Under the pieces are notes generated by a model. The model saw only the letters and a list, made by a program, of their open reading frames with translations. It ran no database searches and was not told the origin of the DNA. A program made the translations under genes and the position numbers. A stretch of DNA of 64,000 nucleotides. Origin: Panax quinquefolius (taxonomy: Eukaryota; Streptophyta; Magnoliopsida; Apiales; Araliaceae). Below, in pieces: positions 1-46,975 of the stretch; the stretch's first letter is position 1, and the number at the start of each line of letters is the position of its first letter. The DNA lies in assembly GCA_020205615.1 (NCBI GenBank), contig CM035170.1, positions 115,180,213 to 115,244,212 of the forward strand. The letters run 5' to 3'.

Positions 1-281
1 TTTTGTTCCATTTTTCTTCTCGTGAGGCGAGAATATAAATGTACTGAGCCTGGGTATGGAATGAAGGTTTTAGAAAGAATTGTTTAGTAGTCCTCACCAT
101 TTTGTAAAATAATGTATAAATAAATGTGATGAGGATTTATTTGAGTATAGATATTGTCTAGAAGATAATATTTGTATTCAAACTCACGCTTTTCTGATTG
201 TAATAATAAAGTTGTAGTTATTTACGCACTATGATTGACAACCTCGTAATAGGTGATGTATACCTATTTTGGGGCGCCACA
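1..281 (+). mobile_element. 3' part of a family A gypsy LTR
   Basis: This stretch aligns by eye with the last part of the LTRs that end at 37359, 38039 and 45501. It ends in GGGGCGCCACA, close to the GGGGGCGTCACA end of the family, and a primer-binding site follows directly. The start of the LTR lies outside the window. It is the 5' LTR of the broken element at 282-4790. Confidence 0.85.
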
Positions 282-294
282 ATTAGTATCGAGC
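282..294 (+). other. degenerate primer-binding site
   Basis: The sequence right after the LTR resembles TTGGTATCAGAGC, the complement of the initiator tRNA-Met 3' end, but several bases are changed or lost around TATCAGAG. Position and context identify it. An intact version is at 38041-38053. Confidence 0.7.
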
Positions 295-466
295 TTAGGA
301 TATGATCTCCATGAGATCGGGGAATAGAACTAGGAGGGAGAGACGAGTAAATCCTTCGCTAAAGGTGTCCTACCTAAGCTTATTTTTTTAGTTGGTCAAG
401 ATATAAGGATATTATGTGATATATTGATTTCCTAATTAACCCTTGTTTTATATATAGTATTTGAGA

Positions 467-1565
467 ATGTCGAATCGAGAATATTAACAATGGAAATGAG
501 ACCGTGGAGACGCTCAGACTCACCAACGAGGAGAACGTGCAACAGTCGGCAATGTTCCTCCCGTGAACAACACCATTAACGAAAGCGATGATGAACGAGG
601 GATGTTTAGATGTTTTTGCAGCTTCATGCAAAATCGCATAAGGAGACTCGTGTTCAAAATACGGAGAAATGATAGCAATTCACGGGTTGTCACAACAAGC
701 GCTTCAAAGAGTTGGGACCACCGTAATTTAAGGGAAAGCGAGATCCGATCATGGCGGAAACACGAAGTCAAGCAAATTACCAAGATATTCGATGTCTTGG
801 GATGGACGGAGGAACGAAGGTTCCATTCGCCACCTTTATGTTCCGTGGCGAAGGCGCATCACTCGGTGGGAGTCTGTGAAGCGCACCCATCCAAACCGCA
901 GACTCAACATGTCTTGGGAGACGTTTAAAACTATTTAATGACAAATACTTTCCGAAAAGTGTTCGTCTATATGAAGGAAGTGGAGTTTATTAGATCGAGA
1001 GCGAAACAACATGACGGTGTCTCAAGACGAGGCAAAGTTTGCAGAGTTATCCAGTTCAGACCTCATTTGGTGGAGAATGAGGAACGATGACGCGGATGTT
1101 TCTTATAGGTTTGAAACCCTAAGATACGCCAAGATCTCATTTCTCATAAATTTTCTCTCTATTCGGATGTTGTAAATGGGCTCAATTATTAGAAATGCGA
1201 GATAACGTAGTACGGTCAACCGAGGACCACAACCAGATCGTATTCGTAGATAGCAATCAATGTAATAATGATAACCAAATGGAGAAAGAAACAGATTTTG
1301 ACAAAAATGGTAACCACTCCGGTGGTAATCATGGCCATGAAAATAGAAGAAGCGAGTCGAGGAGATTTTAAAAGAGGAGATTTAACAATGACCATGTGAA
1401 GACGACAAAGGTCTTAAAGAATCGGTTCTAAGGGAGGAGAACGACCACCCCATATATGTTACAAATGCGAAAAGAGGGATATATCACCAAACCGCCCACA
1501 CAATTCAAGGTATGCTATAATTATGGAAAGGAAGGACATATCGCCGAGATCAGACAAGAATAAAC
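467..1565 (+). pseudogene. gypsy gag remnant (element 1)
   Basis: Gag would form the virus-like particle that packages retrotransposon RNA in the cytoplasm. The likely start is the ATG at 467, which matches the starts at 38225 (plus) and 22257 (minus). The central Retrotrans_gag region is recognisable across frames: a lysine/glutamine-rich ITKIFDVLG stretch near 775-800, then the FNDKYF block near 935-955. Two CCHC zinc-knuckle remnants sit near 1455-1545. The second has the form C-Y-N-Y-G-K-E-G-H-I, so its second cysteine is already tyrosine. Several frameshifts make it non-functional as read. Many of the breaks fall at CNG-like sites that differ between copies, so part of the damage may be sequencing error. 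Confidence 0.8.
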
Positions 1566-1639
1566 CTAGTTCAATGGGGACGGTGACTCAAAAGATCGTT
1601 CCCGAAAAGTCAAAGTCAACGATTCCGGAAGAAGGCGTT

Positions 1640-2160
1640 TGTTATGACCGGTCATAATGCGAGGAACCTAAACGAGGTGATCACGGTAAGCTATTTATAA
1701 ATTCTTGCGAAGTTTATACCTTACTTGATACTGGTGGTATACCCATTCATTTATCTCTCCTGCATGTGCTCAACGCTTAAACTTGACTCCGGGATAAATT
1801 AGACTTTGACCTATCTCGTGGAAACTCCGTTAGAGAAACTTTCATCACATCCAATCGCTTATAAATCTTGTTTGATTCAAGTTGGCACCATCACCTTACC
1901 CGTTGACCTATCTCTTTAAAGATACTTGCTTTTGATGTGATTTTAGGGATTGATTGGTTAACTACTCATCATGCCAAAATTGATTGTTTTCGTAAGGTTG
2001 TTAGTTTTCATATTCCTAACCAACCCGTTGTATTTAATTCAAGCAACTAAACCATTAAAATCAATCATTTGTATCTAGTCATAAAGCTATTCGCTTATTG
2101 AAAAACGGATGTCAAGCTTTCTTAGCCCATGTTATGGATTTGAATAAAGACACGCCAAAT
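1640..2160 (+). pseudogene. retropepsin-like protease remnant (element 1)
   Basis: The aspartic protease of a gypsy polyprotein matures Gag-Pol. The catalytic motif appears as L-L-D-T-G near 1715-1735, after a KLFINSCEVYTL-type lead-in. The second half carries the conserved FDVILGIDWLTTHHAKIDC-type stretch, in pieces around 1930-1990. Frameshifts separate the two halves. The same order is seen at 39370-39900 and, reversed, at 20560-21070. Confidence 0.75.
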
Positions 2161-3500
2161 TTAAATAATATTCTGTTGTTATTGACTTTCCCGACGATTT
2201 CAAGAACTTCCTTGCCTACCCCCGTAACGTGAAGTTGAATTCTTTATTGATCTTGAACTCGTGCACAAAGCCCATTTCTAAAACCCCATATCGAATGGCT
2301 CCTATTGAACTTCGTGAGTTAAAGGTCCAACTACGTGAATTGTTGGACATCGGTTTCATTCGTCCCAGTACATCTCCTCGGGGTGCTCTGCTTTTATTTG
2401 TAGAAGAAGAAAGACGGGAGTATGCGACTTTGTATTGACTATCGGAATTGAACCATGTCACCATCAAGAATAGGTATCCTCTACCTCGTATTGATGACTT
2501 GTTTGACCACCAGTAAGGGGCACAATTCTTTTCAAAAATCGATCTTCGCTTACGGATATCATCAAATGAAGATTAGAACCGAGGATATTCCAAAGACCGC
2601 TTTTAGAACTCCTGGTGCGGGCATTATGAATTCTTAGTCATGTCTTTCGGATCGACTAATGCTCCTCGCGCTTTCATGGATATGATGAACCGAGTATTCA
2701 AGGAATATTTGGATCGGTTTGTTGTTGTCTTTATTGATGACATCCTTATATATTCCAAAAGTCGTGAAGATCATGAGCACCATTTGAAGTCGGTACTCCA
2801 AAGGCTTCGTGAAAACAAACTATATGCCAAATTAAAGAAATGCGAGTTCGGCTTGAGGAAGTAGCTTTCCTTGGGCACGTGGTGTCGAAACATGGAGTAT
2901 TTGTTGATCCGGCCAAGATTGAAGCAATACAAAGTTGGGAGCAACCGGCCGGTGGATCAAGACGTAGCTTTTTGGGCTTAGCCGTTATTATCTGAGATTC
3001 GTGGAAGGGTTTTCTCGAATCGCTACTCCATTAACTCAAATTTAACTCGGAAGGATACAAAATTCGCTTTGGAGTGAAGAATGCGAGAAAAGTTTCCAAG
3101 AGCTTAAGAGGAGACTTATTTCGACTGTTCTAACAATACCATCCGGTTCGGATGGATTTGTTATCTACAATGATGCTTCGTGCAAAGGGTTTGGATGTGT
3201 TCTCATGCAACGTAGGAAAGTCATAGCCTATGCCTCGCGACAACTTAAAGAGTATGAGAGGAATTATCCTACTCATGATCTAGAGTCAAGTGCAATCGTT
3301 TGCTAAAAAGATATGGAGGCACTATCTCAGATGGGGAGAAAGTGGAGATATATTCGCACCATAAAAGCCTTAAATATTTCTTCACTCAAAAAGAACTCAA
3401 CACGCTACAATGACATTGGCTCGAGCTATTGAAAGACTACGACCACACTATTCAATACCATCCTGAAAAGCGAACGTGGTAGTGACGCGCTGAGTAGAAG
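2160..3500 (+). pseudogene. reverse transcriptase and RNase H remnant (element 1)
   Basis: The RT fingers (ISKTPYRMAP, then a fragment resembling the LFV-KK block) lie in 2229-2438. The palm with the catalytic box [11 protein letters not shown] lies in an open stretch at 2640-2864; this is the gypsy version of the YxDD motif. RNase H follows, with the SDEC-like block near 3070-3100 and [14 protein letters not shown] near 3358-3400. Stops and frameshifts lie between these blocks. This enzyme pair would copy element RNA into DNA inside the particle. Confidence 0.85.
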
Positions 3501-3559
3501 ATCATATGCAGAACGAACGAGTGCGATGATGTCAAGTATACGCAGAGTCAACTTTAATA

Positions 3560-4790
3560 GAAAAAGTTAAGGTTGCTTTCCACCAACCCGGAAATGATGC
3601 GTATGAAGAAGAAAGTACAAGAATTAGCTATTCCTAAGCGAGAATTGATGAAGAAGGAATACTTCGAGTCCACTCTGACTTTTGTGTTCCTAACGACTCG
3701 ATTTGAAGTACAAGATTATGATGGAGGCACACAATACACCATTTGCAATCCATCCCGGAAGTACTAAAATGTAACGTGATCTTCGACATACATTTTGGTG
3801 GAACAATATGAAGAGAGAGATTGCAAAGTTTATCTCAATGTGTTTAACTTGTCAACGTGTAAAGGCGAGCATCTAGTACCTAAGGGTCCGTTGAACCACT
3901 TGAGATTCCGAAATGGAAGTGGGAACACATTACCATGGATTTCAAGACGGGTCTTCCTACGGTTTCTCGTGGCATCAATGCTATTTGGGTTATTGTTGAT
4001 AGATTAACCAAGTCTGCTTTCATTTCTTGCCGACACGGAGACTTATTCACTTGAACGCCTTCTTGCTAGTATGACGTGAATGAGATTGTGAGGTTGCATG
4101 GCATGCCTCAGATCCATAGTTTCAGATCGTGACCCAAGATTCACTTCAAGATTTTGGGTTAGCTTGCAAAAAGCTATGGGCACGGATTTACGATCTGGCT
4201 CGCATACCATCCTCAAACCAGACGGACAATCGAAAGGACTATTCAAACTCTTGAAGATTTATTAAGACTCTGTGTCCTGAACTTCAAGCGGATTGGGATA
4301 AGTATTTATCATTGGTGGAATTCTCCTACAACAACAAAGCTTATCGAAGCAAGTATAGGTGTAGCTCCATTTGAAGCATTATATGGACGAAAGTGTCGCT
4401 TCCCAAAGATGTTGGGACGAGGTGGGTGAAGCAACACCGTTGGGACCCGAGTCAGTACGTACGTATGACTACGAAAAAGATCCAAATGATTCGACAACGA
4501 TACAAACCAAGACAAGATCGACAAAAGAGTTATGCGGATCTTCATCGAAAGGACGTGGAATTTAGTGTAGGGGATCATGTATTATTGCGAAGTTGCTCCA
4601 TGGAAGGGAGTTACAAGATTTGGGAAGAGAGGAAAGCTCAATCCACGATTTATTGGTCCATTTCAAATTCTCGACCGAGTAGTAGAAATGTAGCCTATGA
4701 CTTGCGTTACCTCTCCAAGTATGTCTCGTGTTCATAATGTGTTTCACATATCCGTCATTTCAAATATGTGAAAGACCAACCACGTTATAG
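3560..4790 (+). pseudogene. integrase remnant, 3' end lost (element 1)
   Basis: Integrase inserts the cDNA into chromatin. The zinc-binding HHCC region (HxxxGxxK near 3750, CxxC near 3840) is followed by core pieces: a region matching [10 protein letters not shown] near 3910-3940, SDRDPRF near 4120-4145, and a LVEFSYNN-like block near 4315-4335. The GPY/F-type end is recognisable near 4600-4690. Several frameshifts are present. At about 4790 the frame stops matching the family and passes into LTR sequence, so the chromodomain-like tail, polypurine tract and 3' LTR are missing. Confidence 0.8.
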
Positions 4791-5820
4791 AATTATTGAT
4801 GCTTACGTGAGAAGTCACTCACCGGTATGCTTTCAATTATTGCAACAAAGAATTGTTGCATCATATCTCTTATATTATTGATTCAATTATTGTCACAAGA
4901 TTATCCTCAGATAATATGTTATAAAGATTAAATCAATAATTAAGACGACAAGTTATAAATGATTAATAATTGTTGAAAGATTAAATATGTGTTGATTAAA
5001 AATAAAATGATTTGTGGTAATATTTATTCAATCCTTGATATATAAAAGAGTCTCATTATGAGACGTTTGTGGTAAGTTTGATTATTTTATGGGGGCCCAT
5101 ATGTCATCATCTAAGAGTCTCTTCACAATAAGAATTACCTTCGTCAAATAGTAATTACCTTCGCAATAGTAATTACCTTTTACCGACGCCAAACCACTTG
5201 CCGTTTATATTACAAAAGGCCGAGCCACTTTTTGTTTCACATTACAAAAGCGCCGAACCACTTGTCGTTTCACATTATAAAGGCCAAAACCACTTTTCTT
5301 TTCACATCACTACCGTCAAGCCACTTGCCTTTTCACATGGCAAAAGCTTTAAGCTAGAAATCTTCTATAAATAGAGGCCTAGTGCTTCATTATTTTCACG
5401 AATTCATTCAAGCTATAAAGAGAGAAAGTATAGAGAGAATAAGAGAGAGAAGAAGAGTATTTTGTTACTACACTACTTTGCAGATTCAATCTCCTATTAA
5501 AAGTAAGGGGTGTTATTCTTTCTTATTCATGAAGAGAACTGTTGTTATTCCATTGCTTATTATTCTGGAATAACCTCGTATAATGTGGTTTACCCTATAC
5601 TTGGTGACATTCTTCTATTATTCTGTTGGAACATCCTCATGCATGTGTTTTACACATTCTGACCGGGTTCCGCTTTTTATTATTATTATTCTTGGAACAT
5701 ACCGTCTGTGTTTTACGCCGGACTGGTTCCATTATTTATTATTCATTTGAATATCCTCGCTTTATGCGTTTTACGCCGGGACCGGTTCCGTTATTTATTA
5801 TTCTCATTGAAATAACTCGC
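4791..5820 (+). mobile_element. internal fragment of a family B LTR
   Basis: This region matches about 8612-9672 inside the complete B LTR, in the same order: the GATGCTTACGTGAGAAGTCAC block, AATTACCTTCG repeats, the CCACTTG repeats, TATA box, and the roughly 59 bp leader repeat. It lacks both LTR ends. Integrase of element 1 abuts it on the left and RT of element 2 on the right, so both borders are illegitimate junctions. Confidence 0.8.
5366..5373 (+). promoter_or_regulatory. TATA box of the B LTR fragment
   Basis: TATAAATA is followed by GAGGC, identical in context to the box at 9211-9218 of the complete B LTR. Confidence 0.6.
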
Positions 5821-6650: not shown

Positions 6651-6779
6651 AGCGATATTGTCAACGCAGAGCCCATTTTGTGTGACTTGCAAAGGATGGA
6701 GATAGAGTTAAAGACTCTAGGGACGCATGTGATGATAATGAGTATACAAGTAGAATCGACTTTAATCGATAAAGTTAAA

Positions 6780-11991: not shown

Positions 11992-12003
11992 GCTCTGATA
12001 CCA
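11992..12003 (-). other. intact primer-binding site (type D)
   Basis: On the minus strand this reads TGGTATCAGAGC, a full 12-base match to the usual plant initiator tRNA-Met primer site. Two bases separate it from the LTR end. It fixes the orientation of the remnant. Confidence 0.9.
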
Positions 12004-14626: not shown

Positions 14627-14639
14627 TTGGTATCAAAGC
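14627..14639 (+). other. primer-binding site (B' element)
   Basis: TTGGTATCAAAGC differs at one base from the consensus TTGGTATCAGAGC. It lies three bases after the LTR end. Confidence 0.85.
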
Positions 14640-15126: not shown

Positions 15127-17684
15127 TGTGACGCCCCCAAAATAGGTATACATCACCTATTCTCGAAGTTGTCAATACATGGTACGTAAACAACTACAAC
15201 TTTATTATTACAACCGTAAAATCGTGAGTTTGAATACAAATATTATCTTCTGTACAATATCTATACTCAAATAAATCCTCATCACATTTATTGATACATT
15301 ATTTTACAAAAATGGTGAGGACTACTAAACAATTCTTTCTAAAACCTTCATTCCATACCCCCAGGCTGCATCTTCGCTATATTCTCGCCTCCCGAGAAGA
15401 AAAAATGGAACAAAAAGAAAAGGGTGAGCTCAACTAGCCCAAGAAGAATATTATGACTAAGATAATATACAACAAATTATCGTTAGTCTTCAACAGGAAA
15501 AATCTAATAGAATACAATAGACAACAAATTTTAAATCAATATTCGCAATGGAAATAATAATTCATTAGAAGAGTTAAGTAGAGAATGCAAACTACTATCT
15601 TCTATGTATGAATTTAAAAGTTCATCGCCTATCTTTTATCCCCAGAACATCAATCAATATACATCCTGAATCAAATATTCATCTTTGCACTATAGGCCAA
15701 AGATATTCATCATTGGTCATGTTCATCTAAACACTGCTCATCTTTGCACTACTACCAAAGATATTCTTCAGAAATCATTCATCTTTGCACTACAGGGCCA
15801 AAGATATTCAATAATATCATCATTTAAGACCGAGGATGATGAAAATATTTTTAAAGAAACGAATCCAAAGGAAACAAAAATGAGAAGGATTAAGGATTAA
15901 GGATTCGTACTTTGTTTTATCCATGTTCAAAAATACCTCAAAAATGATCATAGTGGTGTAAAATTCAAGAATGATCAAAACATGGATACAATCAAAGCTA
16001 GTATCCGTAATAGATATTTTGGACAAAAAGAAGAAATTTAATTTTTCTATGAATAAAGGTCGATACGTGAATAAATAGTCAGATATGCGTGAATAGTAAC
16101 TCTCGCACCAAAAGATAGAAATTCCACAAAAACATCTTCACGCTTCATGAATAAGACTTTCGTGAATAAGAATCGTGAATAAAAGATCTCATGAATAAGA
16201 ACTCGTGAATAAGAACTCATGAATAAGAACTCATGAATAGTAACCCCGATATGAAAAAGTTCCAAATTTGATAAAAAGTTCCAACCAATATTTCAAAGAT
16301 AATGATATTGAAGAAATAATATCATTTGAGAAAAATTAACATCCCTTACCTCGAAAGATTAAGACTTCTAAATTTGAATACCGGGTATAGTCTTCAAGGA
16401 ACTTGCACCGCCTAACAATACTCAAAGTATACTCAAAATACTCACAAGAATACGCTTCGATAATATAGAGAGAAAACTTCAGCTTCGGTGTGATTTTCAA
16501 TTCTAACCCAAGACCCTATTTATAGAAAATGCTTAGAACACCAAAGCGTAAAATTTAATATAATATTAATATATATATTAAGATTTCTACGCCCACCTTT
16601 CTAGATCTGATCTCAGCTCATTATGCACATGTTGTAGCCCACAAAACAAACAAAAAAAAACGTTTTATTATTTAAAATATTTTAAACTTCCAAAATCAAT
16701 TATTTTGAGCTTCAAACTTCAATAATTCATAATAAATAGCCCTTCTATCGTAAAATTTCGAATCTCGCTAGTTTTTATAGGAAATTCAATTCTCTACAAC
16801 TTTGCGTAAGAAAGTTTTTCTAAATTCCAAACAAAATTGACCGAAATCCACAAACGGGATTTTACAGCTATAATCAAATTTCACTCAATAAATGGGGTCC
16901 AATCGACATGTTTAACATGTTTTAAACATTTATTGCAACAAAAATACTCTTCCTCCTCAGATACTCATATATCCCACATTCGTTGTAAAAATATCACCAT
17001 TATTATATTATTAAAATATAATAATATATTTAAAAGAATTATTTTATCGTAAAAAGATAAAATTTCAATTTTCAACAATTGTCACATTAAAATTTTTCTC
17101 CATCTATATCCACATAAAATCAATATTTTCCTCATCATATGAATCAATAATTAATTATTCACAAATAATATTACGTAATCACAATATCGACAACCAGCGC
17201 TTTCAGAGAGGGGCTTTCCAATAAGAATTTTTTCATCATGCATACCGCAATTAGGTGACCAAACCTCTTCTTAGATGTAACTTTCTAGTTATTGCCAATA
17301 ATGTTATCTAATAATATTATTCGATAATATGAATTATTGCTTCGATAATAAAAAATCTTATCGTGTAAATGACAATTATCAAACAACCGCAATATAAAAT
17401 ATCAACGCAGTTAAATTATTAACTCAATAAAATACCGAATAAGAATTATCGTGACCATTATTGAGTAGTGCCTTCTTACGTAAGAATCAACAATTGGTAC
17501 TGCATACCGTATCTTCTTTGTTTTAACCACCGGTATTTTAACATATTAATAATGTGAACAATTATTTTATTTTGAAGTATTTATATTTTACCCCTAACTA
17601 TCCACATTAATCACATCAACCCTTACTATTTCAAAATAATAAATAGAAAATTAAATTTCATTAATAATAAGTTGGGGTCTTACA
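15127..17684 (-). mobile_element. 3' LTR of the minus-strand A element
   Basis: On the minus strand it starts TGTAAGACCCC at 17684 and ends GGGGGCGTCACA at 15127, 2558 bp. The TATA box is at 16517-16524. Hairpin repeats lie at 15675-15813 and the GTTACTATTCATGA array at 16180-16250. Compared with its partner it lacks about 200 bp of U3 around 17535-17570. Confidence 0.9.
16517..16524 (-). promoter_or_regulatory. TATA box of an A LTR
   Basis: On the minus strand it reads TATAAATA followed by GGGTC, the conserved context in all A LTRs. Confidence 0.6.
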
Positions 17685-19120: not shown

Positions 19121-19179
19121 CATTTCCGGCCTGTGGGCTCGAAAGAACCTTAACTTTTTCTATTAAAGTCGACTCTACG

Positions 19180-20540: not shown

Positions 20541-20559
20541 AATAACAACAGAATATTAT

Positions 20560-21090
20560 TTAAATTTGACGTGTCTTTATTCAAATCCATAACATGGGCT
20601 AAGAAAGCTTGACATCCGCTTTTCAATAAACGAATAGCTTTATGACTAGATATGATGGTGATTGATTTTAATGGTTTAGTTGCTTGAATTGCATAACAGT
20701 TGGTTAGAATATGAAAACTAACAACCTTACGAAAACAATCAATTTTGGCATGATGAGTAGTTAACCAATCAATCCCTAAAATCACATCAAAAGCAAGTAT
20801 CTTTAAAGAGATAGGGTCAATGGTAAGTAAGTGATGGTGCCAACTTGAATCAAACAAGATTTATAAATGATGGATGTGATGAAAGTTTCTCCTAACGGAG
20901 TTTCCACAGATAGTCAAAGTCTAATTTATCCTGAGTCAAGTTTAAACGCTGAGCACACGCAGAGAGATAAATGAATGGGTAGCACCCCAGATCAAGTAAG
21001 GTATAAACTTCGCAAGAATTTATAAATAGCTTACCCGTGATCACCTCGCTTAGGTTCCTCGCATTATGACCAAATCAACAAACGCCTTCT
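20560..21090 (-). pseudogene. protease remnant (minus A element)
   Basis: The motif region KLFINSCEVYTLL is near 20995-21035; the catalytic DTG/DLG block after it is altered. The second half is readable as a long open stretch (20560-20857) containing FDVILGIDWLTTHHAKIDC. It joins the RT region without a clear stop because Pol is one polyprotein. Confidence 0.8.
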
Positions 21091-21099
21091 TCCGAATCG

Positions 21100-22257: not shown

Positions 22258-22429
22258 TCTCAAATACCGCCATAAAACAAGGGTTAATTAAGGAAATCAA
22301 TATATCACATAATATCCTTATATATCGACCAACTAAAAAATAAGCTTAGTAGGACACACTAGCGAAGGATTTACTCGCCTTTCCCTCCTAGTTCTATTCC
22401 CCGATCTCCGCCAGAGATCATATCCCTAA

Positions 22430-22442
22430 GCTCGATACTAAC
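22430..22442 (-). other. degenerate primer-binding site (minus A element)
   Basis: On the minus strand it reads GGTTAGTATCGAGC, with the same kind of alteration (TTAGTATCGAGC) as at 282-294 in element 1. The consensus is TTGGTATCAGAGC. That the same change appears twice, at the CAG within the site, fits the CNG pattern described in the findings. Confidence 0.75.
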
Positions 22443-22443
22443 C

Positions 22444-33881: not shown

Positions 33882-36303
33882 TGTGACGCCCCAAATTAGG
33901 TATATCACCCATCTTGGGTCGCCACTTACATGGTACATAAATTCAAATACAACTTACTAATATAAGCGTAGGTATACAATACGACATAAACCGTGAGTTT
34001 GAATACAAATATTATCTACTAGATATTATACAAACTCAAAAGGAGTCCTCATTACAACTATTATCACCTTTATTTCACGCGAATAGTGAGGACTACTAAT
34101 GCTATCCTCGGACCATTACTCCGCTCCCCGACTCGTCTCATTTATGTTCTCATTTCACAGAAAAAGTGAAAGAAAAGGGTGAGCTCAACTAGCCCAAGAA
34201 GAAATATTATGACTAAGATAATGCGAGAATAAATTATCATTAGCCTTCACGATGTTAAACCGATAAAATACAATGATACAACCGGTTTAATCTGCAGAGG
34301 AATATGCAATCCATTAAAAAAATCAAGTAGAGAATAAAGTCTACTATCTTTTAGGTTTTAAAAAGGTTTTCATCAATTTTATCACGAGACTTAGCTTAAT
34401 AAATAAACCACCACATCTAATCATCTACATACTTACGGTCAAGGATTTTCATCAAATTATCAATGGTCATGACTATACCGAATCACCCCGTCATAATCAT
34501 ACCAAAAACTATCCATCAACGCATTACATGTGCCACCGAGGACTTTAGTCACATCATTTATATCAAGTCATGATTATACCGAATGATCCTCGTCATAATC
34601 ATACTAAGTTCATCTATGCACGTAAGCGAAAAGATAACATAATATAACATGAGGATGATGACAATGACATAATAATTCAATAAAACAAGTTCAAGAATTA
34701 TTTAATCCATGAATTATTAACGTCCCAAATTGTCAACATGATCTTTGTTTAAATGAGAGTAAAATTCAAAATGATCGTAAAAATATTTCCATGAAAAGAT
34801 CTTCGGATGAAACGCAAATATCAAGGATATTCTACTAATTTCATGGAGTATAAAGTCAAAGTTTTAACCAACTAGGTATAATAAAGAATGGAATAACAAA
34901 AGAAATCACCACGCATGCGGTGCTTGCATAGACAAAGTTATTCCAACATAATAATAATAACGGAACCGGTCGTGAAATTCACAAGCGGGATGTTCCAACA
35001 GAATAATAAAGATGGAACCCGGATCCGGTGTAAAACACACGACATAGGATATTCCAACGAGAATGATAAAGATTTTAACCAGTCCTTGTAAAACACATGC
35101 ATGTGATGTTCCAATGTAATAATAAAAAGCGGAACCAGTCCCAAGTAAAACACACGCATGTGATGTTCCAAATGTAATAATAGAAGAATGTCACCAAGTA
35201 TAGGTAAAATCATGATCAAAGTTATTCCAATGTAATAATAAAGAATGGAATAACATAAGGATTTCACCAAGTATAGGGTATACCATGTGCACTGAGTTAT
35301 GTATAGGGTATGCCACTTTTACAAAAGTTATTCCAATGTAATAATAGTGAATGGAATAATGTAAGTTCTCTTCAAGAAGAAAGAATAACACCCTTACGGA
35401 ATACAACAAATAATATCCCTTACCGTAAAAGACAACTGGATATCAAAGTAGTGAAGTACCGTAATACTCTTCTTCTTTCTCTCTATAGATTTTCTCTATA
35501 TACTTCTCTCTATAATTTCTCTCTCTAGAGTTTCGGTGAATTAAGTAAGAAAATAATGTAGGAATGAGCTTCTATTTATAGGAAAATAGAATGCATAGTA
35601 ATTAATCCATGAACGGTCCAGATTGATTTACTTTAATCGACAAATCAAATTTAAAGCAAAATCTTTTAAATAAAATATCATATATTCTATTTATATAAAA
35701 ACATTTTACTATGCAAATACTATACGCAACACTACGCAAAACACTATGCAACACTATGCATAATAAAATATAATATATTCTATTTATAGAATAACTTTAA
35801 TAAAGTATTACATTTTATATAAAAGATGTTTCATTTTATTACGTTAATAATACGAATAAAACAAAACGTCATTATCGCTATAATAATTCATATTATTAAT
35901 CGGCTAATAATGGAATCAAACCGGTGACTTCTCATATAAACATCAATAATCAATACCGTGTGCTACTATGTAACCACACGTGACATCTTTATCTTTTACT
36001 ACCGAGTAGTTCAACAATGTCAACCAGTAAAACTTCCGCCGTTATTTCAATAAAATATTTTTGTCGCTTTCTTAATCCGACAATAATTACGCTAGGTCCA
36101 CCAATGATTGAGTAGTTATTTACGAATATTCCCTGCTAAATGTAATATTCCCCACCAATCGAATATAATATAACCACTTGCATACTTTGCAAAATTTATA
36201 AATACTACCCACAACTATAATATTATCTCAAATTCACACCATAATATTAAAAAATTATTTCGACAAAATTTAAATCTTTATTGATAAAATCTGGGGTCTC
36301 ACA
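33882..36303 (-). mobile_element. solo B' LTR with target duplication (second)
   Basis: On the minus strand it starts TGTGAGACCCC at 36303 and ends GGGGCGTCACA at 33882, 2422 bp. It is closely similar along its length to the solo LTR at 29962-32387. The CTATT repeats on both sides show a normal insertion followed by LTR-LTR recombination. It sits inside the GTTACTATTCATGA array of the host LTR, so it is younger than that LTR. Confidence 0.92.
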
Positions 36304-36308
36304 CTATT
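36304..36308 (+). repeat. right target-site duplication CTATT
   Basis: Partner of 33877-33881. Confidence 0.85.
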
Positions 36309-36356
36309 CATGAGTTACTATTCATGAGTTACTATTCACGAGTACTATTCATGAAG
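36309..36356 (+). repeat. GTTACTATTCATGA array of A LTRs (split copy)
   Basis: The 15-16 bp unit continues from 33829-33881 across the solo LTR. The other arrays are at 44396-44466 (plus) and, reversed, at 16180-16250 and 23455-23535. The unit number differs in each. Confidence 0.8.
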
Positions 36357-36685
36357 CGTGAAGATGTTTTTTGTGGAATTTCTATCTTTTGGTGTCTGAG
36401 ATTACTTATTCACGTATACTAAGACTATTCACGATACTGACTATTCAATTAAAAAATAAAATTTCTTCTTTTGTCCAAAATATCTATTCGGATACTAGCT
36501 TTGATTGTATCCATGTTTTGATCATTCTTGAATTTAACACCACTATGATCATTTTTGAGGTATTTTTGAACATGGATAAAACAAAGTACGAATCCTTAAT
36601 CCTTAATCCTTGTCATTTTGTTTCACCGGATTCGCTTCTTTAAAAATATTTTTCATCATCCTCGCCTTAAATGATGATATTATTG

Positions 36686-36820
36686 AATATCTTTGGCACT
36701 CAGTAATGCAAAGATGAATGATTTGAAGAATATCTTTGGTAGTAGTCAAAGATGAACAGTGTTTATATGAACATGACTTAATCGATGAATATCTTTGGCC
36801 CATAGTGCAAAGATGAATAT
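36686..36820 (+). repeat. stem-loop repeat array in the A LTR leader
   Basis: Three units contain ATCTTTG, a loop of about 9-10 bases containing TAGTG, then CAAAGAT or a variant. They are near 36690-36718, 36730-36755 and 36790-36818. The first and last arms are complementary over 7 bases. Equivalent arrays are at 44817-44947 and, reversed, at 15675-15813 and 22990-23118. Confidence 0.7.
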
Positions 36821-37359
36821 TTGATTCCGATGTATATTGATTGATGTTACAGGATATAAAGATAGACGATGAACTTTTAAATTCATACATAGAAGATAGT
36901 AGTTTGCATTTCTCTACTTAACTCTTCTAATGAATTATTATTTCATTGCGAATATTGATTTAAAATTTGTTGTCTATTGTATTCTATTAGATTTTTCCTG
37001 TTGAAGACTAACGATAATTTGTTGTATATTATCTTAGTCATAATATTCTTTACCGGGCTAGTTGAGCTCACCCTTTTCCTTTTTGTTCCATTTTTCTTCT
37101 CGTGAGGCGAGAATATAAGAAAAGCACGAGTCTGGGTATGGAATGAAGGTTTTAGAAAGAATTGTTTAGTAGTCCTCACCATTTTGTAAAATAATGTATC
37201 AATAAATGTGATGAGGATTTATTTGAGTATAGATATTGTCTGAAGATAATATTTGTATTCAAACTCACGGTTTTACTTTGTAATAATAAAGTTGTAGTTG
37301 TTTCGCATCATGTATTGACAACTCGTAATAGTGATGTATACCTATTTTGGGGGCGTCAC

Positions 37360-38039
37360 GTGTAGTCAAAAGATGAATGATTTCAAGAATATCTTTGGCC
37401 ATAAAGTGCAAAGATGAACATGTGTTTAGATGAACATGACCAATCGATGAATATCTTTGGCCCTCAGAGTGCAAAGATGAATATTTGATTCCGATATATA
37501 TATGATTGATGTTACACTTGATAAAAGATGAGCGATGAACTTTTAAATTCATACATGTAAGATAGTAGTTTGCATTCTCTACTTAACTATTCTAATGAAT
37601 TATTATTTCAGCTGCGAATATTGATTTAAAATTTGTTGTCTATTGTATTCTATTATATTTTTCCTCATTGAAGACTAACGATAATTTGTTGTATATTATC
37701 TTTGTCATAATATTCTTTATTGGGCTAGTTGAGCTCACCCTTTTCCTTTTTGTTCCATTTTTCTTCTCGTGAGGCGAGAATATAAGCGAAAGCGAGTCGG
37801 GTATGGAATGAAGGTTTTAGAAAGAATTGTTTAGTAGTCCTCACCATTTTGTGTAAAATAATGTATCAATAAATGTGATGAGGATTTATTTGAGTATAGA
37901 TATTGTCTAGAAGATAATATTTGTATTCAAACTCACGCAGCTTTCTTGTTGTAATAATAAAGTTGTAGTTGTTTCGCATCACGTGTATTGACAACTCGTA
38001 ATGGGTTGGATGGAATGGACCTATTTTGGGGGCGTCACA
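37360..38039 (+). mobile_element. partial family A LTR (3' part), adjacent repeat
   Basis: This 680 bp repeats 36695-37359 in order and ends GGGGGCGTCACA before a primer site. It begins in the stem-loop array, so two LTR 3' parts lie in tandem. It serves as the 5' LTR end of the element at 38040-45501. Confidence 0.85.
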
Positions 38040-38040
38040 G

Positions 38041-38053
38041 TTGGTATCAGAGC
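38041..38053 (+). other. intact primer-binding site
   Basis: TTGGTATCAGAGC follows the LTR end after one base. It matches the plant initiator tRNA-Met primer site throughout. Confidence 0.92.
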
Positions 38054-38224
38054 TTAGGGATATGATCTCTGGCGGAGATCGGGGAATAGAACTAGGAGGG
38101 GAGAGACGAGTAAATCCTTCGCTAGTGTGTCCTACCTAAGCTTATTTTTTTGGTCAGTATATAAGGATATTATGTGATATATTGATTTCCTTAATTAACC
38201 CTTGTTTTATGACAGTATTTGAGA

Positions 38225-39345
38225 ATGTCGACTGAGAATATTAACAATGGAAATGAGACCGTGGAGACGCCTGTACTCACCAACGAGGAGAAACGCAGTA
38301 ACAGTCGGTAATGTTCCTCCCGTGAACAATACCACCGAGCGATGATGAACGAGGGTTGTTTAGAAGCTTTTGCGCTTCATGCAAAATCGACGAGGAGACT
38401 CGTGTTCAAAATACGAGGAGAAATGATAGCAATTCACGGGTTGTTACACAAACAAGCAGCTTCAAAGAGTTGGGACCACCGAAATTTAAGGAAAGCCGGA
38501 TCCGATCATGGGCGGAAACATGGGTCAAACAAATTACAAAGATATTCGATGTCTTGGGATGCACGGAGGAGCGAAGGTTCCATTCGCCACCTTTATGTTC
38601 CGTGGCGCGAAGCGCATCTATCGGGTGGAGAGTCATGAAGCGTACCCATCCAAATGCACTCAAATGTCTTGGGAAGCGTTTGAAACTATTTAATGACAAA
38701 TACTTTCTTGAAAGTGTTCGTCATATGATGGAAGTGGAGTTCATCGATTAGAGCAAAACAACATACGACGGTGTCTCAATGACGAGGCAAAGTTTGCGAG
38801 TTATCGTGTTTGCACCTCATTTGGTGGAGAATGAGGAACGTATGACACTTGATGTTTCTTAGAGGTTTGAAACCCGATACGTCGAGATCTCATTTCTCAT
38901 AAACTTTCTCTATTCAGATGTTGTAAAATGGGGCTCAATTATTAGAAACGAGATAACGAGTACGGTCAAACCGAGGACCACAACCGAGATCGTACGTAGA
39001 TAGCGATCAACGTAATAATGATAACCAAATGGAGAAAAACAGACGGACAAAATGGTAACCACTGCGGGTGGTAATCATGGCCATGTAAATAGAAGAAGCG
39101 AGTCGGGAGGAGATTTTAAAAGAGGAGATTTAACAATGACCATGTGAAGAAGACGATGTCGGCGACAAGAATCGGTTCTAAGGGAGGAGAACGACCACCG
39201 GGTTATATGCTATAAATGCGGGAAAGAGGGACATATCACCAAACCGTCCCACAACAGCTCAAGGTATGCTATAATTATGGAAAGGAAGGACATATCGCTC
39301 GAGATTATACTGTAGCGAAACCTAGTTCAATGGGGATGGTGACTC
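38225..39345 (+). pseudogene. gag remnant (plus A element)
   Basis: The start ATG at 38225 gives MSTENINNG-like sequence after one early shift. Central blocks AETWVKQITKIFDVLG (near 38513-38565) and a LFNDKYF block (near 38690) match Retrotrans_gag. The zinc knuckles are near 39208-39245 (C-Y-K-C-G-K-E-G-H, followed by lost spacing) and 39265-39310 (C-Y-N-Y-G-K-E-G-H). At least four frameshifts are present. Confidence 0.85.
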
Positions 39346-39369
39346 AAAAGACTATCCCGTAAAAGTCAA

Positions 39370-39900
39370 AGTCAACGATTCCGGGAAGAGCGTTTGTTGT
39401 GGATCGGTCATAATGCTAGGAACCCAAACGAGGTGATCACGGGTAAGCTATTTATAAATTCTTGCGAAGTTTATACCTTACTTGATCTAGGTGCTACCCA
39501 TTCATTTATCTCTCTCCTTGTGCTCAACGCTTAAACTTGACTCGGAGAAATTAGACTTTGACCTATCTGTGGAAACTCCGCTAGAGAAACTTTCATCACA
39601 TCCACCGCTTATAAATCTTGTTTGATTCAAGTTGGCACCATTACCTTACCTGTTGACCTTTATCTCTTTAAAGATACATGCTTTTGATGTGATTTTAGGG
39701 ATTGGTTGGTTAACTACTCATCATGCCAAAATTGATTGTTTTCGTAAGGTTGTTAGTTTTCATATTCCTAACCAACCCATTGTATTTAATTCAAGCAACT
39801 AAACCATTAAAATCAATCATGCACCATTATCGTATCTAATCATAAAGCTATTCGTTTATTGAAAAAACGGATGTCAAGCTTTCTTAGCCCATGTTATGGA
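39370..39900 (+). pseudogene. protease remnant (plus A element)
   Basis: GKLFINSCEVYTLLD is followed by L-G-A-T-H-S-F-I-S near 39480-39510. The family motif is D-T/S-G-A, so the catalytic triad here reads D-L-G. The FDVILGIGWLTTHHAKID block is near 39680-39740. Frameshifts separate it from gag and RT. Confidence 0.8.
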
Positions 39901-41290
39901 TTTGAATAAAGACACGCCAAATTTGAATAATATTCCCGTTGTTATTGACTTTCCGACGATTTCAAGAACTTCCCTTGCCTACCCCGTAACGTGAAGTTGA
40001 ATTCTTTATTGATCTTGAACTGGTACAAAGCCCATTTCTAAAACCCCATATCGAATGGCTCCTATTGAACTTGAGAGTTAAAGGTCCAACTACGTGAATT
40101 GTTGGACATCGGTTTCATCTCGCCCTAAGTACATCTCCTCGGGGTGCTCTGCTTTATTTGTAAAGAAGAAAGACGGAGTATGCGACTTTGTATTGACTAT
40201 CTGAATTGAACCATGTCACCATCAAGAATAGGTATCCTCTACCTCGTATTGATGACTTGTTTGACCAACATTCTGGGGCACAATTCTTTTCAAAATCGAT
40301 CTTAGTTCTAGATATCATCACCAAGATTAGAATCGAGGATATTCCAAAGATCGCCTTGTAACTCAGTATGGGCATTATGAATTCTTAGTCATGTCTTTCG
40401 GATTGACTAATGCTCCTGCGGCTTTCATGGATATGATGAACCGAGTATTCAAGGAATATTTGGATCGGGTTCGTTGTTGTCTTTATTGATGACATCCTTA
40501 TATATTCCAAAAGTCGTGAAGATCATGAGCACCATTTGAAGTTTGGTACTCCAAAGGCTTCGTGAAAACAAACTATATGCCAAATTGAAGAAATGCGAGT
40601 TCGGCTTGAGGAAGTAGCATTCCTTGGGCACGTGGTGTCGAAACATGGAGTATCTGTTGATCCGGCCAAGATTGAAGCAATACAAAGTTAGGAGCAACCA
40701 AGTCGGTGGATCAAGTACGTAGCTTTTGGGCTTAATTGGTTATTATCGGAGATTCGTGGATGGGTTTTCTCGAATCGCTACTCCATTAACTCGCCTAACT
40801 CGGAAGGATACAAAATTCGTTTGGAGCGAAGAATGCGAGAAGAGTTTCCAAGAGCTTAAGAGGAGACTTATTTCTAAGACTGTTCTAACAATACCATCCG
40901 TTCGGATGGATTTGTTATCTCACAATGATGCTTCGGCAAAGGGTTAGGATGTGTTCTCATGCAACGTGGGAAAGTCATAGCTTTATGCCTCGCGACAACT
41001 TAACTTAAAGAGTATGAGAGGAATTATCCTACTCATGATCTAGAGTTAGCGGCGTGATGCGTTTCAGCTTAAAGATATGGAGGAACTATCGTCAGATGGG
41101 GAGAAAGTGGAGATATATTCGGACCATAAAAGTCTTAAATATTTCTTCACTCAAAAAGAACTCAACACGCAGAAGCGACGTTGGCTCGAGCTATTGAAAG
41201 ACTACGACCACACTATTCAATACCATCCCGGAAAAGCGAACGTAGTAGCCGACGCGTTGAGTAGAAGATCATATCGCGAACGAGTGCGAT
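39900..41290 (+). pseudogene. RT and RNase H remnant (plus A element)
   Basis: RT blocks: a KPISKTPYRMAP-like block near 40025-40060, an [17 protein letters not shown] block near 40190-40220, a [17 protein letters not shown] block near 40390-40440, and [21 protein letters not shown] near 40465-40535. RNase H is partly clean: [30 protein letters not shown] is open at 40726-40947, and [26 protein letters not shown] is open at 41077-41292, ending [15 protein letters not shown]. The open pieces are each shorter than 75 residues, so no active enzyme is encoded as read. Confidence 0.88.
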
Positions 41291-41299
41291 GATGTCAAG

Positions 41300-42525
41300 T
41301 ATACGACAGAGCCAACTTTAATAGAAAAAGTTAAGGTTGCTTTCAAGCCACCGACCGGAGCCGATGCGCGTATGAAGAAGAAAGTACAAGAAGGAGCTAT
41401 TCCTAAGCGAGAATTGATGAAGAAGGAATACTTGAGTCCACTCTAGACTTTGTGTTCCTAACGACTCGATTTGAAATACAAGATTATGATGGAGGCACAC
41501 AATACACCATTTGCAATCCATCCTCGGAAGTACTAAAATGTATCGTGATCTTCGACATACATTTTGGTGGAACAATATGAAGAGAGATTGCAAAGTTTAT
41601 CTCAATGTGTTTAACTTGTCAACGTGTAAAGGCGAGCATCCGGGTACCTAAGGGTCCGTTGCAACCACTTGAGATTCCGAAATGGAAGTGGGAACACATT
41701 ACCATGGATTTCGTTACGGGTCTTCCTACGGTTTCTCAGGGCATCAATGCTATTTGGGTTATTGTTGATAGATTAACCAAGTCTGCTCATTTCTTGCTGA
41801 TACGGGAGACTTATTCACTTGAACGTCTTGCTAGTATGTACGTGAATGAGATTGTGAGGTTGCATGGCATGCCTGTATCCATAGTTTCGGATCGTGACCC
41901 AAGATTCACTTCAAGATTTTGGGTTAGCTTGCAAAAAGCTATGGGCACGGATTTACGATTCGATTCAAAGATACCATCCTCAAACGGACGGACAATCGAA
42001 AGGACTATTCAAACTCTTGAAGATTTATTAAGACTCACATGTCCTGTACTTCAAGGCGGTTAGGATAAGTATTTACCATTGGTGGAATTCTCCTACAACA
42101 ACAGCTTATCGAGCAAGTATAGGTGTGGCTCCATTTGAAGCATTATATGGGCGAAAGTGTCGCTCTCCAGTATGTTGGGACAAGGTGGGTGAAGCAACAT
42201 TGTTGGGACCCGAGTTGGTACGTATGACTACGGAAAATATCCAAATGATTCGACAACGTATACAAACGGCACAAGATCGAAAAAAGAGTTAAGCGGATCT
42301 TCATCGAAAGGACGTGGAATTTAGTGTAGGGGATCATGTATTGTTGCGAGTTGCTCCATGGAAGGGAGTTACAAGATTTGGGAAGAGAGGAAAGCTCAAT
42401 CCACGATTTATTGGTCCATTTCAAATTCTTGACCGAGTAGGAAATGTAGCATATAGACTCGCGTTACCTCCGAGTATGTCTCGTGTTCATAATGTGTTTC
42501 ACATATCGTACTTCAGAAATATGTG
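41300..42525 (+). pseudogene. integrase remnant (plus A element)
   Basis: The zinc domain is near 41500-41640. An open stretch of 152 residues at 41605-42063 carries ITMDF with the first catalytic aspartate and IVSDRDPRFTSRFW with the second. The segment after KAMGTDLRF is scrambled near 41960-41985, where other genes of this family have a YHPQTDGQ block. The glutamate block lies near 42080. A second open stretch at 42314-42526 has [17 protein letters not shown] and [22 protein letters not shown]. It is the best-preserved integrase core here. Confidence 0.9.
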
Positions 42526-42780
42526 AAAGACCCGAACCACGTTATAGAGTTAGAACCCAGACGAGATAGCCAAGACTTAACGTATGAGGAGGTACTGTCA
42601 AGATCTTGGATAGGAAGGAGCATGTCCTACGCTAAGAAAGGTCATACCACAAGTTAAAGTTTTGTGGAGGAATCATGCTATAGAGAAAATGACCGAGAAT
42701 TAGAAACGGAAATGAAAGCGAGGTATCCTCACCTTTTCAAACACCAGTGCACGTCACGTCAATTTCGAGGACGAAATTTC
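42526..42780 (+). pseudogene. chromodomain-like tail remnant (plus A element)
   Basis: Recognisable against 7938-8222: [14 protein letters not shown] near 42527, a YEEV block near 42585, the LDRKEHVLR-like block near 42605-42635, and VKVLWRNHAIEKMT near 42655-42690. Each block is in a different frame. It ends at the QFRGRNFIRREV-like stretch before the polypurine tract. Confidence 0.75.
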
Positions 42781-42794
42781 ATAAGGAGGGAGGT
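42781..42794 (+). other. polypurine tract
   Basis: ATAAGGAGGGAGGT directly precedes the LTR start TGTAAG. Confidence 0.88.
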
Positions 42795-45501
42795 TGTAAG
42801 ACCCCAACTTATTATTAATGAAATTTAATTTTCTCTATTTATTATTTTGAAATAAGAAGGGTTGATTTGATTAATGTGGATAGTTAGGGGTAAAATACGC
42901 AAATATTTCAAAATAAGCAAGTGGTTATAAAATATTCATTGTTGTTTGAGAATATTAAATGCTGTTTTGGAATATTCGTGCGACGGCACAAATAATATGG
43001 GCCCCATAACTGAAAGCGATTGGATGAAGAAAACGACAAATATATAAGTTGTTTAAAAATAATGGCGTAGTTATTACTGATTAACACTTTGTTGGAATAC
43101 CCGGTGGTTAAAAACACGATGTCTGGCGTTGTTGCCAAGATGACACTCAGTATTGCACCAATTATTGAAGGCCTTTACTCAATAATGGTTACGATAATTC
43201 TTATTCGATATTTTATTTTATTGATTCAATAATTGCTACGTTGACATTTTATATTCATTGTTGTTTGATAATTGTCATTACAATCGTATTTTCCATTATC
43301 GGAGCAATAATTCATATTATCTGAATAATATTATTAGATAACATTATTGACAATGTCTAGAAAGTTACATCTAAGGAGAGGTTTGATCATCTAATCATGC
43401 GTGCGCCCGATGAGGAGAGATCCTTATTGAAAGCCCCTCTATCCCTGAACTGCTCGTCATTGTCAATAATGTGATTCTATAATATTATTTATGAATAATT
43501 AATTATTGATTTATATGATGAGAAAAATATTGATTTTATGAGGATATAGATGGAGAAAATTTTAATGTGACAATTGTTGAAAATTAATATTTTATCTTTT
43601 TCTCGATAAAATAATTCATTTAAATATATTATTTTAATAATATATTAACGATGATATTTTTACAATGAATGTGGGATATATGAGTATATGAGGAGGAAGA
43701 GTATTTTGTGGCATTAAATGTTTAACACATATTTTGTGTGTTGGTGGACACAATTATTGATCAAATTTGATTATAGCACAGTAAAATCGCCCGTTTGTGG
43801 ATTTCGGTCAATTTCTGTTTGGAATTTGAAAAAACTTTCTTCTGCAAAGTTGTAGAGAATTGAATTTCCTATAAAAACTCGCAAGATTTGAATTTTCTGA
43901 TAAAAGGGCTATTTATTATGAATTATTGAAGTTTCGAAATAATAAATTTTTGGGAGTTTTAGTTAATTATTTTGAGAAAAACGTTTTTTGCAACTAAGTT
44001 GGCCTCACATGTGATTCAAATGGGCTGAGATCAGTTGTCTAAGGTGGGCTAAAGAAAATGTGAAAAATATATTAATATTATATTCAATTTTCTGCTTTGG
44101 TGTTCTAAGCATTTTCCTATAAATAGGGTGCTTAGGTTAGAGTTGAAAATCACAACAGAAACTGAAGTTTCTCTCTATTTCTCTCTCGATATATTGAGCG
44201 TATTCTTGTGAGTATACTTTGAGTATTGTTAGGCGATGCAAGTTCCTTCAAAGACTATACCCTATTCCAAATAGAAGTACTAATCTTTCGAGGTAAGGGA
44301 TGTTATTTTCTTCTCGAGATGATATTATTTCTTCAATATCATTATCTTTGAAATATTGGTTGGAACTTTTATCAAATTTGGAACTTTTTCATGTCGGGTT
44401 ACTATTCATGAGTTACTATTCATGAGTTACTATTCACGAGTTACTTATTCACGAGTACTATTCATGAAGCGTGAAGATGTTTTTTTTGGAATTTCTATCT
44501 TTTGGTGTCGAGTTACTATTCACGTATCGGCATTATTCACGATACCTGACTATTCACGATACGCCACTATTCAATCGAAAAATAAAATTTCTTCTTTTTG
44601 TCCAAAATATCTATTACGGATACTAGCTTTGATTGTATCCATGTTTTGATCATTCTTGAATTTTACACCACTATGATTATTTTTGAGGTATTTTTGAACA
44701 TGGATAAAACAAAGTACGAATCCTTAATCCTTAATCCTTGTCATTTTGTTTCAATTTGGATTCGTTTCTTTAAAAATATTTTCATCATCCTCGGTCTTAA
44801 ATGATGATATTATTGAATATCTTTGGCTGTCAGTGGTCAAAAATGAATGATTTTGAAGAATATCTTTGGCCATAGTGCAAAGATGAAAAAGTGTTTAGAT
44901 GAACATGACCAATCGATGAATATCTTTGGCTCAGAGTGCAAAGATGAATATTTGATTCCGGATATATATTGATTGATGTTACACGGATAAAAGATAGACG
45001 ATGAACTTTTAAATTCATACATAGAAGATAGTAGTTTGCATTCTCTACTTAACTCTTCTAATGAATTATTATTTCACTACGAATATTGATTTAAAATTTG
45101 TTGTCTATTGTATTCTATTAGATTTTTCCTGTTGAAGACTAACGATAATTTGTTGTATATTATCTTAGTCATAATATTCTTTACTTGGGCTAGTTTGAGC
45201 TCACCCTTTTCCTTTTTGTTCCATTTTTCTTCTCGGGAGGCGAGAATATAATGAGTACGAGTTGGGTATGGAATGAAGGTTTTAGAAAGAATTGTTTAGT
45301 AGTCCTCACCATTTTGTAAAATAATGTATCAATAAATGTGATGAGAATTTATTTGAGTATAGATATTGTCTGAAGATAATATTTGTATTCAAACTCACAA
45401 TTTCTTCATTGTAATAATAAAGTTGTAGTTGTTTACATGCCATGTATTGACAACTTTCGAGAATGGGTTGGATGGAATGGACCTATTTTGAGGCGTCCAC
45501 A
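42795..45501 (+). mobile_element. complete family A LTR (3' LTR)
   Basis: It starts TGTAAGACCCC and ends GAGGCGTCCACA, 2707 bp. The TATA box is at 44118-44125. The GTTACTATTCATGA array is at 44396-44466 and the stem-loop array at 44817-44947. It is the reference copy for the other A LTRs in the window. Confidence 0.92.
44118..44125 (+). promoter_or_regulatory. TATA box of the A LTR
   Basis: TATAAATA followed by GGGTG, about 1.32 kb into the LTR. All A copies keep it. Confidence 0.65.
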
Positions 45502-46975
45502 GATTTGTTATGAATTTTAAGAGGTGATGATTTCGTAAATTAGGTTTATAAATGATTTTGGTGGAAAATTCTAGAATTGAGTGGGCCCCACTTGTGGTTG
45601 GTGAAGAAATGTCTTTGAATTTATTTCAAATGTGGTGGGTGGGAATAATAGCGGTAAAAGCCATCGGGTTCAGTCAAGTCCGCTAACGCTTTTCCTATAA
45701 ATAGAGGCTAAGTTAAAATTTAAAATCACACCGTAAACAAGTTTTCTCTTTTCTCTCTATTATTGAGTGTATTTTGTGAGTATTTAGATACTTTGTGAGT
45801 TTCTATTCATCGCTGTAAGTTTCCTTGACCTTTCTCTATAGATATTATATTCAAATCGTAAGACCGATATTTTGAGGTAAGGAATGTTATTTTCTTCATA
45901 TATGATATTATTTCTTCAATATCATTATGCCGAAGTATTGATCTGAATTTTTATCAAATTTAAAACCTTTTTTGTCGGGGTTACTATTCACGTATACGAC
46001 ACTATTCACGAATACGACACTATTCACCAAAAAATAAATTTTTTTTCTTTTTGTCCAAGATGTCTATTATGGTTACTATCTTTGATTGTATCCATGTTTT
46101 GATCTTTATTTTTAAATTCTGCTTCAAAATTGGTATTTATGAAGTATTATTGATCTTGGATAAACTGTTATACGAATCCCTACTATTTGTCCTTCCGTTT
46201 CACTGGATTCGTTTTCTTTAAAATATTTTTCATCATCCTCAGTCCTAAATGATGATATTACTAAATATATCTTCGGCCTGTAGTGCAAAGATAAATGATT
46301 AATCGATGAATATCTTTGGCCCGTAGTGCGAAGATGAACAAGTGTTGAGATGAACACGACCAACCCATGATATCTGAATGAATATCTTTGGCTGTAGTGC
46401 AAAGATGAATATTTGATTAAAGATGTATATTGATTGTTATTACGGGATAAAATATTGATGATGGACTTTTAAATCTTAGAAGATAGTAGAACTCATTCTC
46501 TACTTGACTCTTCTAATGGATTGTTGTTTCACCTTGCGAGTTGTTGATCTAAAACTTGTTGGCTATTATATTTTATCGATTTTTCCTCGTTGAAGACTAT
46601 CGATAATTTGTTGTATATTATCTTAGTCATAATATTCTTTATTGGGCTAGTTGAAATCACCCTTTTCCTTTTTTGTTCCATTTTTCTCGGGAGGTGAGAA
46701 CATGGCGAGGAACTAGTCGAGTAACGGAGTGATGGTTCTAGAAAGATGTTTTAATGATCCTCACTATTTTATGTAAAATAGTGTTTGAATAATTATAACG
46801 AGGACTTATTTGAGTGTGGATATTGCCTGTAAGACAATATTTGTATTTAAACTCATAGTATGTGTTGTCGTATTTTGCACGCGACAATTGTATTATTGAA
46901 GTTATAGTTTGCTTTCTGTACCATGTATTTGACGACTCAGAATGGATGTTGTATACCTATTTTGGGGGCGTCACA
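45502..46975 (+). mobile_element. 3' part of a type D LTR
   Basis: It ends GGGGGCGTCACA at 46975 and matches the reversed fragment at 12006-12235. The TATA box is at 45696-45703. Three clean stem-loop units lie at 46263-46290, 46308-46335 and 46377-46406. The U3 start is missing; it abuts the end of the A LTR directly. It marks the right edge of the transposon block. Confidence 0.8.

Follow-up and report, generated by a model that had tools for sequence, protein, structure and literature searches.

Whether short blocks of differing letters between copies of a retrotransposon are mutations or errors of the assembly is the question raised by a window of 64,000 nucleotides of Panax quinquefolius DNA (C20:115180213-115244212, the whole stretch analyzed; assembly of 3.57 Gb in 821 contigs). 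In this window nested Ty3-like retrotransposons lie in positions 1-47000 and a gene region with an NF-YB gene at ~54 kb adjoins them. An earlier note on the same letters had read the blocks as methylation-linked base-calling errors. This reading was supported and is amended here in two respects, the direction of the error towards CG and a possible role of polishing in the contrast between genes and transposons. With a probability of roughly 0.86, as judged from the sequence, the blocks are mostly nanopore base-calling errors at 5-methylcytosine in CAG/CTG that were left uncorrected in high-copy retrotransposons, and not mutations.

The conservation of all trinucleotides was determined in 15 overlapping self-alignments of the window, of which four, mutually disjoint, were used for the main tests and for the count of CAG products. 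In the four disjoint alignments CAG/CTG was non-conserved at 113 of 177 sites (64%, against 20% for all trinucleotides; odds ratio 7.4, p = 6e-38) and changed in length at 28% of sites against 8% overall (odds ratio 4.4, p = 7e-15). Both the enrichment of the differences at this motif and the presence of length changes, not C-to-T changes alone, had been claimed before and were borne out. Across all 15 alignments CAG/CTG was the least conserved of the 32 trinucleotides (70% changed, 21% overall), and in 30 overlapping alignments it was kept at 18-35% in every flanking-base context, with no flank preference. The motif was also depleted. Measured against the dinucleotide expectation, its observed/expected ratio was 0.46 in 1-47000, where every other trinucleotide reached at least 0.86, and 0.86 in the gene-side region 47001-57500; by segment it was 0.35-0.49 across most of the retrotransposon block, 0.59 in 45501-47000 and 0.65 in 57501-60500. 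When the strands were compared, as the earlier note had suggested, CAG and CTG were equally rare on the sense strand of the three copies of the element called family A (19/18, 22/18 and 20/18), a strand-symmetric loss. The wider CHG context proposed in that note narrows to CAG/CTG: CCG/CGG was non-conserved at 48% of sites in the four disjoint alignments, but its observed/expected ratio in 1-47000 was 0.95. Because it is poorly conserved but not depleted, it is more likely a product of the error than its source, and it was rejected as a second error source. Examination of higher-order words in the window gave nothing interpretable beyond CAG/CTG.

The letters that stand in place of CAG/CTG were counted where the difference was confined to the motif. 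At 18 of 36 such sites the counterpart contained CG and was not a transition product, compared with 42 of 1285 for other non-CpG trinucleotides (p = 2e-16). CG itself led with 9 of the 36, CAA was found twice and TAG never; in the 15 overlapping alignments the products were CG 18, CGT 9, CAA 5 and TAG 2. These counts support miscalls that run towards CG rather than being undirected. The observed/expected ratio of CpG was 1.06 in 1-47000 and 0.79 in 47001-57500.

At the primer-binding sites the assembled letters can be held against a known sequence, TGGTATCAGAGC, which we take to be the complement of the 3' end of the initiator-Met tRNA. A pattern search of the window and of 20 further loci of 10 kb returned 10 sites, of which eight read TATCGAGC instead of TATCAGAGC and two were intact; the pattern finds only GTATC..GAGC forms and misses other altered sites, such as the one at 14626-14639. 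At these eight sites the assembly disagrees with that sequence. Within the window the alterations at 283, 22430 (minus strand) and 57829 and the intact sites at 11992 (minus strand) and 38042 agreed with those listed earlier. Both intact sites were preceded by CACAG, and four of the eight altered ones by CACGG. Control words with a single deletion gave 1-3 matches for five of them, and TATCAAGC gave 10 matches.

Codon usage was examined at conserved positions, which were judged by up to 120 homologs (240 listed proteins of the 6206 and 4012 found); a codon was counted if it drew 5 or more votes and an agreement of 70% or more. At conserved integrase positions glutamine was encoded by CAA 25 times and never by CAG, and leucine by TTG 31 times and by CTG once; glutamate was divided between GAA (22) and GAG (21). 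These codons come from several copies of one family and are not independent. The retrotransposons retained glutamine at 25 of 57 positions and NF-YB at all 6, five of them as CAG and one as CAA; the gene had indeed been said to keep its CAG codons.

The variable blocks of the long terminal repeats (LTRs) were located (Table 1). Three of the four blocks between GCGAGAATATA and GGGTATGG lie, apart from small slips, where they had been placed (39-52, 37118-37133 and 45251-45263), and the fourth, given as 37797-37800, is in fact found at 37785-37798, about ten bases off. The three family A copies are 88-90% identical, with about 150-165 gap openings per pair (149-159 for the copy at 1-4795 against the other two). 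In their three-copy alignment at least one copy carried CAG/CTG in 50 of 125 length-changing blocks, compared with a mean of 18.2 and a maximum of 29 in 500 random placements; in set B the count was 15 of 46 (random mean 8.1, maximum 16). CCG/CGG was also enriched in the family A blocks (61 of 125, 25.4 at random). Two LTR pairs were compared within their elements. The minus-strand pair differed in 104 of 1086 columns (9.6%), distributed over 9 isolated substitutions, 20 multi-base blocks and 7 single indels, and the plus-strand pair in 141 of 1095 columns, with 8 isolated substitutions, 20 multi-base blocks and 6 single indels. We know of no mutational process that yields such a mix of few isolated substitutions and many multi-base blocks. 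In the plus-strand region, positions 37369-38038 are a tandem copy (91% identical) of the LTR part 36710-37359, placed after the LTR and ahead of the primer site at 38042.

Recurrence of the pattern was investigated in a genome sample of 20 loci of 10 kb (L009-L028, 200 kb), one per contig C1-C20, at round-number positions chosen by hand. Eight more loci (L001-L008) were picked by a primer-site match and were excluded from the correlations, the homopolymer counts and the primer-pattern search. In the 20 loci CAG/CTG was again the most depleted trinucleotide (0.72, the next 0.90; locus range 0.37-0.99), and low CAG tracked high CpG (rho -0.62 for the 20 loci, -0.52 for 80 bins, p = 7e-7); of the control words, CAC ran in the opposite direction to CAG and GAC showed no relation to CpG. 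Conservation was scored in 27 disjoint alignments kept of 197 among L001-L028, the eight primer-matched loci included. CAG/CTG was changed at 58.5% of sites against 27.8% and length-changed at 17.0% against 6.7%. Short old pieces with the start of plastid rbcL were seen at 5 places in nuclear contigs (L029, L030 and L031); three of them align with each other over ~200-400 bases, and plastid insertions were not used as ground truth.

What the letters show directly is the motif, the outcome rich in indels, the CG product, the recurrence in the genome sample and the comparisons with the gene and with the primer sites. CHG is a plant methylation context, and plant CHG methylation favors CAG/CTG over CCG. 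The proposed explanation is that native retrotransposon DNA would carry 5-methylcytosine in the CHG context, most strongly at CAG/CTG, and that a base-caller that had met 5-methylcytosine mainly before G would write methylated CAG/CTG as CG, CGT, CGG or CGAG, with bases gained or lost. Since CHG is symmetric, both strands would fail and the consensus would leave the error in place; high copy number would block the unique mapping of short reads, so that polishing would leave it as well. The nanopore platform, the methylation, the training bias and the failed polishing are the parts of this explanation that we infer.

Several observations weigh against base-calling error at methylated CAG/CTG or limit its reach. 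The eleventh primer-like site, at 14626-14639, reads TATCAAAGC, a transition. The clustering of differences with spared flanks, another claim of the earlier note, proved modest: 237 difference blocks were counted against 316-329 (33-39% more) in three uniform-decay simulations at similar invariance, out of nine run, and the share of blocks differing in all three copies was not above that in simulated uniform decay. Against these simulations, clustering was rejected as too weak to serve as proof of an artifact. In blocks where two copies agree against one, CAG/CTG belonged to the odd copy in 14 cases and to the matching pair in 4 for family A, and in 1 and 5 cases for set B; as CAG/CTG can arise by decay of CpG as well, these counts are compatible with either polarity of the blocks. 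Threonine was retained as poorly as glutamine in the retrotransposons (24 of 55), so that poor glutamine retention alone is not specific. In the genome sample the CAG ratio also rose with the observed/expected ratio of GpC (rho 0.72, 20 loci), and part of the correlation between CAG and CpG may be compositional. CCG/CGG was there as badly conserved as CAG/CTG (58.9%, length change 17.0%), and deamination-type products were common (CAA 21, TAG 18 and CGG 22 of 186), which argues that real decay is mixed in. Two Ty3 pairs among the 45 longest pairs, which are not independent, were nearly clean: L024/L026, at 83% identity, had a length change at 1% of 101 CAG/CTG sites, and L016/L025 at 7% of 110; the Ty3 domains of these pairs were checked for L024 and L016. 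The CAG ratio of L024 was still 0.67, and part of the depletion is thus not from error. Given the two nearly clean pairs, the error is patchy in the genome. The patchiness may come from lower CHG methylation or from successful polishing of diverged copies, and the sequence data fit either. Finally, long A/T runs were scarce where CAG was scarce (rho 0.69, 20 loci).

The nearly clean pairs and the scarcity of long A/T runs are what would be expected if the nanopore errors were intrinsic to sequence context or simply unpolished, with methylation uninvolved and the genes clean through short-read polishing. We regard this as improbable, although it fares best among the alternatives. CAG/CTG, which is a CHG site, differs by far from all other trinucleotides, whatever its flanks. 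The deficit of long A/T runs is equal in the nearly clean L016, L024, L025 and L026; it is therefore probably no mark of error, and the homopolymer shortage was set aside as a nanopore signature because it is confounded in this way. Since some retrotransposons are nearly clean, the contrast between gene and transposon may still be due in part to short-read polishing.

That the blocks stem mainly from the normal decay of aged retrotransposons, with deamination of methylated C at CHG and CpG as one component, is very improbable. Transition products do exist, chiefly in the genome sample, but the confined differences in the window were 9 CG against 2 CAA and no TAG. Like the present case, deamination or repeat-induced point mutation hits methylated repeats; it gives C-to-T transitions and loss of CpG, whereas here length changes and an excess of CpG were found. 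C-to-T (G-to-A) changes did not dominate at the motif in the window and made up 39 of 186 in the genome sample. The excess of CpG in the retrotransposons speaks against decay because decay of methylated DNA should lower CpG. Within the minus-strand element the LTRs show few isolated substitutions but many multi-base blocks, and what decay looks like in this genome can be seen in the nearly clean Ty3 pairs, where CAG was changed at 54% against 42% overall and length-changed at 1%.

It is equally hard to believe that the letters are true and that a real mutational process rewrites methylated CAG/CTG as CG-type words with small indels. The specificity of motif and product would suit such a process, and the letters are those of the assembly; one unlikely form of it, in plants, would be base-excision repair that goes wrong once 5-methylcytosine has been removed from a CHG site. 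The process would, however, need to have destroyed the primer site in the majority of copies although the elements still amplified, and to have worked in the time since the two LTRs of a single pair diverged. To our knowledge no mutational process targets methylated CAG/CTG and writes CG-type words. Subfamily variants inherited by descent or gene conversion are the least credible source, since the TATCGAGC form, although identical at 8 sites as inheritance would give, also occurs at sites with unrelated flanks (57829, and 3744 of L009), and blocks that differ between the LTRs of one element or in all three copies are not inherited markers.

On their sequence, the elements in 1-47000 are Ty3-like, with LTR pairs, intact initiator-Met primer sites and protease, reverse transcriptase and integrase zinc-binding domains. 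RVP_2, RVT_1 and Integrase_H2C2 scored above the Pfam cut-offs in separate open reading frame pieces, and matches to Retrotrans_gag and rve in such pieces were below the cut-off. Segment 10801-15100, in which the intact primer site at 11992 lies, shares ~70% identity with family A and had a CAG/CTG ratio of 0.72, above its neighbors. The strongest depletion of the window was found in 62501-64000, outside the interval covered by the earlier note (0.10; 2 observed, 20.3 expected). In 60756-61512 inverted and direct self-matches are clustered, with a self-complementary stretch at 61319-61512.

Table 1. Coordinates of the features in the window and of one pair from the genome sample.
Feature	Position	Strand	Basis or remark
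Primer-binding site reading TTAGTATCGAGC (CAG as CG)	283..294	+	pattern match
Primer-binding site reading TTAGTATCGAGC	22430..22441	-	pattern match
Primer-site-like word TTAGTATCGAGC, flanks unrelated	57829..57840	+	pattern match
Intact primer-binding site TGGTATCAGAGC	11992..12003	-	pattern match
Intact primer-binding site TGGTATCAGAGC	38042..38053	+	pattern match
Variable block between GCGAGAATATA and GGGTATGG	39-52	+	family A copy 1..4795
Variable block between GCGAGAATATA and GGGTATGG	37118..37133	+	seen in the letters
Variable block between GCGAGAATATA and GGGTATGG	37785-37798	+	family A copy 37748..42552
Variable block between GCGAGAATATA and GGGTATGG, another LTR copy	45251..45263	+	seen in the letters
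Family A copy, cut by window start	1..4795	+	self-alignment; putatively corrupted block 39-52
Family A copy	17926..22727	-	self-alignment
Family A copy	37748..42552	+	self-alignment; block 37785-37798
LTR, minus-strand element	15128..16197	-	partner 22444-23507
LTR, minus-strand element	22444..23507	-	partner 15128-16197
LTR, plus-strand element	36303..37360	+	partner 44415-45500
LTR, plus-strand element	44415..45500	+	partner 36303-37360
Gene-side control region, CAG/CTG near normal (0.86)	47001..57500	.	trinucleotide counts
NF-YB piece (CBFD_NFYB_HMF domain), CAG retained	54063..54377	-	domain match, codons
Ty3 pair, nearly clean	L024:1225-4292 and L026:6932-9999		pair alignment

Errors of a related kind are reported from bacteria. 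In Klebsiella, ~70% of the consensus errors of the then-current Oxford Nanopore Technologies (ONT) base-callers were in the Dcm sites CCAGG/CCTGG, and a human-trained Chiron model had 0.29% Dcm error (Wick 2019, PMC6591954). As in that report, 5-methylcytosine in a symmetric C-W-G core would here defeat the default ONT models. The Klebsiella work (PMC6591954) had the true genome and the methylation in hand, whereas we infer both; it also differs in that the present motif is the bare CAG/CTG of plant retrotransposons and the miscalls lean to CG. For plants, the absence of their methylation from the training data was expected to lower the accuracy of nanopore base-calling (Ferguson 2022, PMC9749173); its passages on this point name no motif, and 'CHG' and 'CAG' are absent from its main text, whereas the motif here is CAG/CTG. 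CHG as a plant methylation context is stated in the abstract of PMC8514461. A full-text search, judged on titles and the openings of abstracts, found no publication on CAG-to-CG miscalls in plants, which may still be in print.

In biological terms the pattern would be an artifact, useful as a warning and as a screening test. The ages of LTRs and the pseudogene calls in this window are unreliable. The ages would be inflated, as in the minus-strand pair with its 9.6% of differing columns and 9 isolated substitutions; frame breaks and dead primer sites would be miscounted, and false subfamily splits are possible. Low CAG/CTG together with high CpG would be a quick screen by which assemblies of this kind could be recognized from any plant FASTA file, and the same pair of numbers might serve as a crude map of CHG methylation where methylation data are lacking. 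The retrotransposon copies in the window are probably less old and less damaged than their letters suggest. Provided that the sampled loci represent the genome, many recent retrotransposons in the P. quinquefolius assembly would carry the imprint of CHG methylation as wrong letters.

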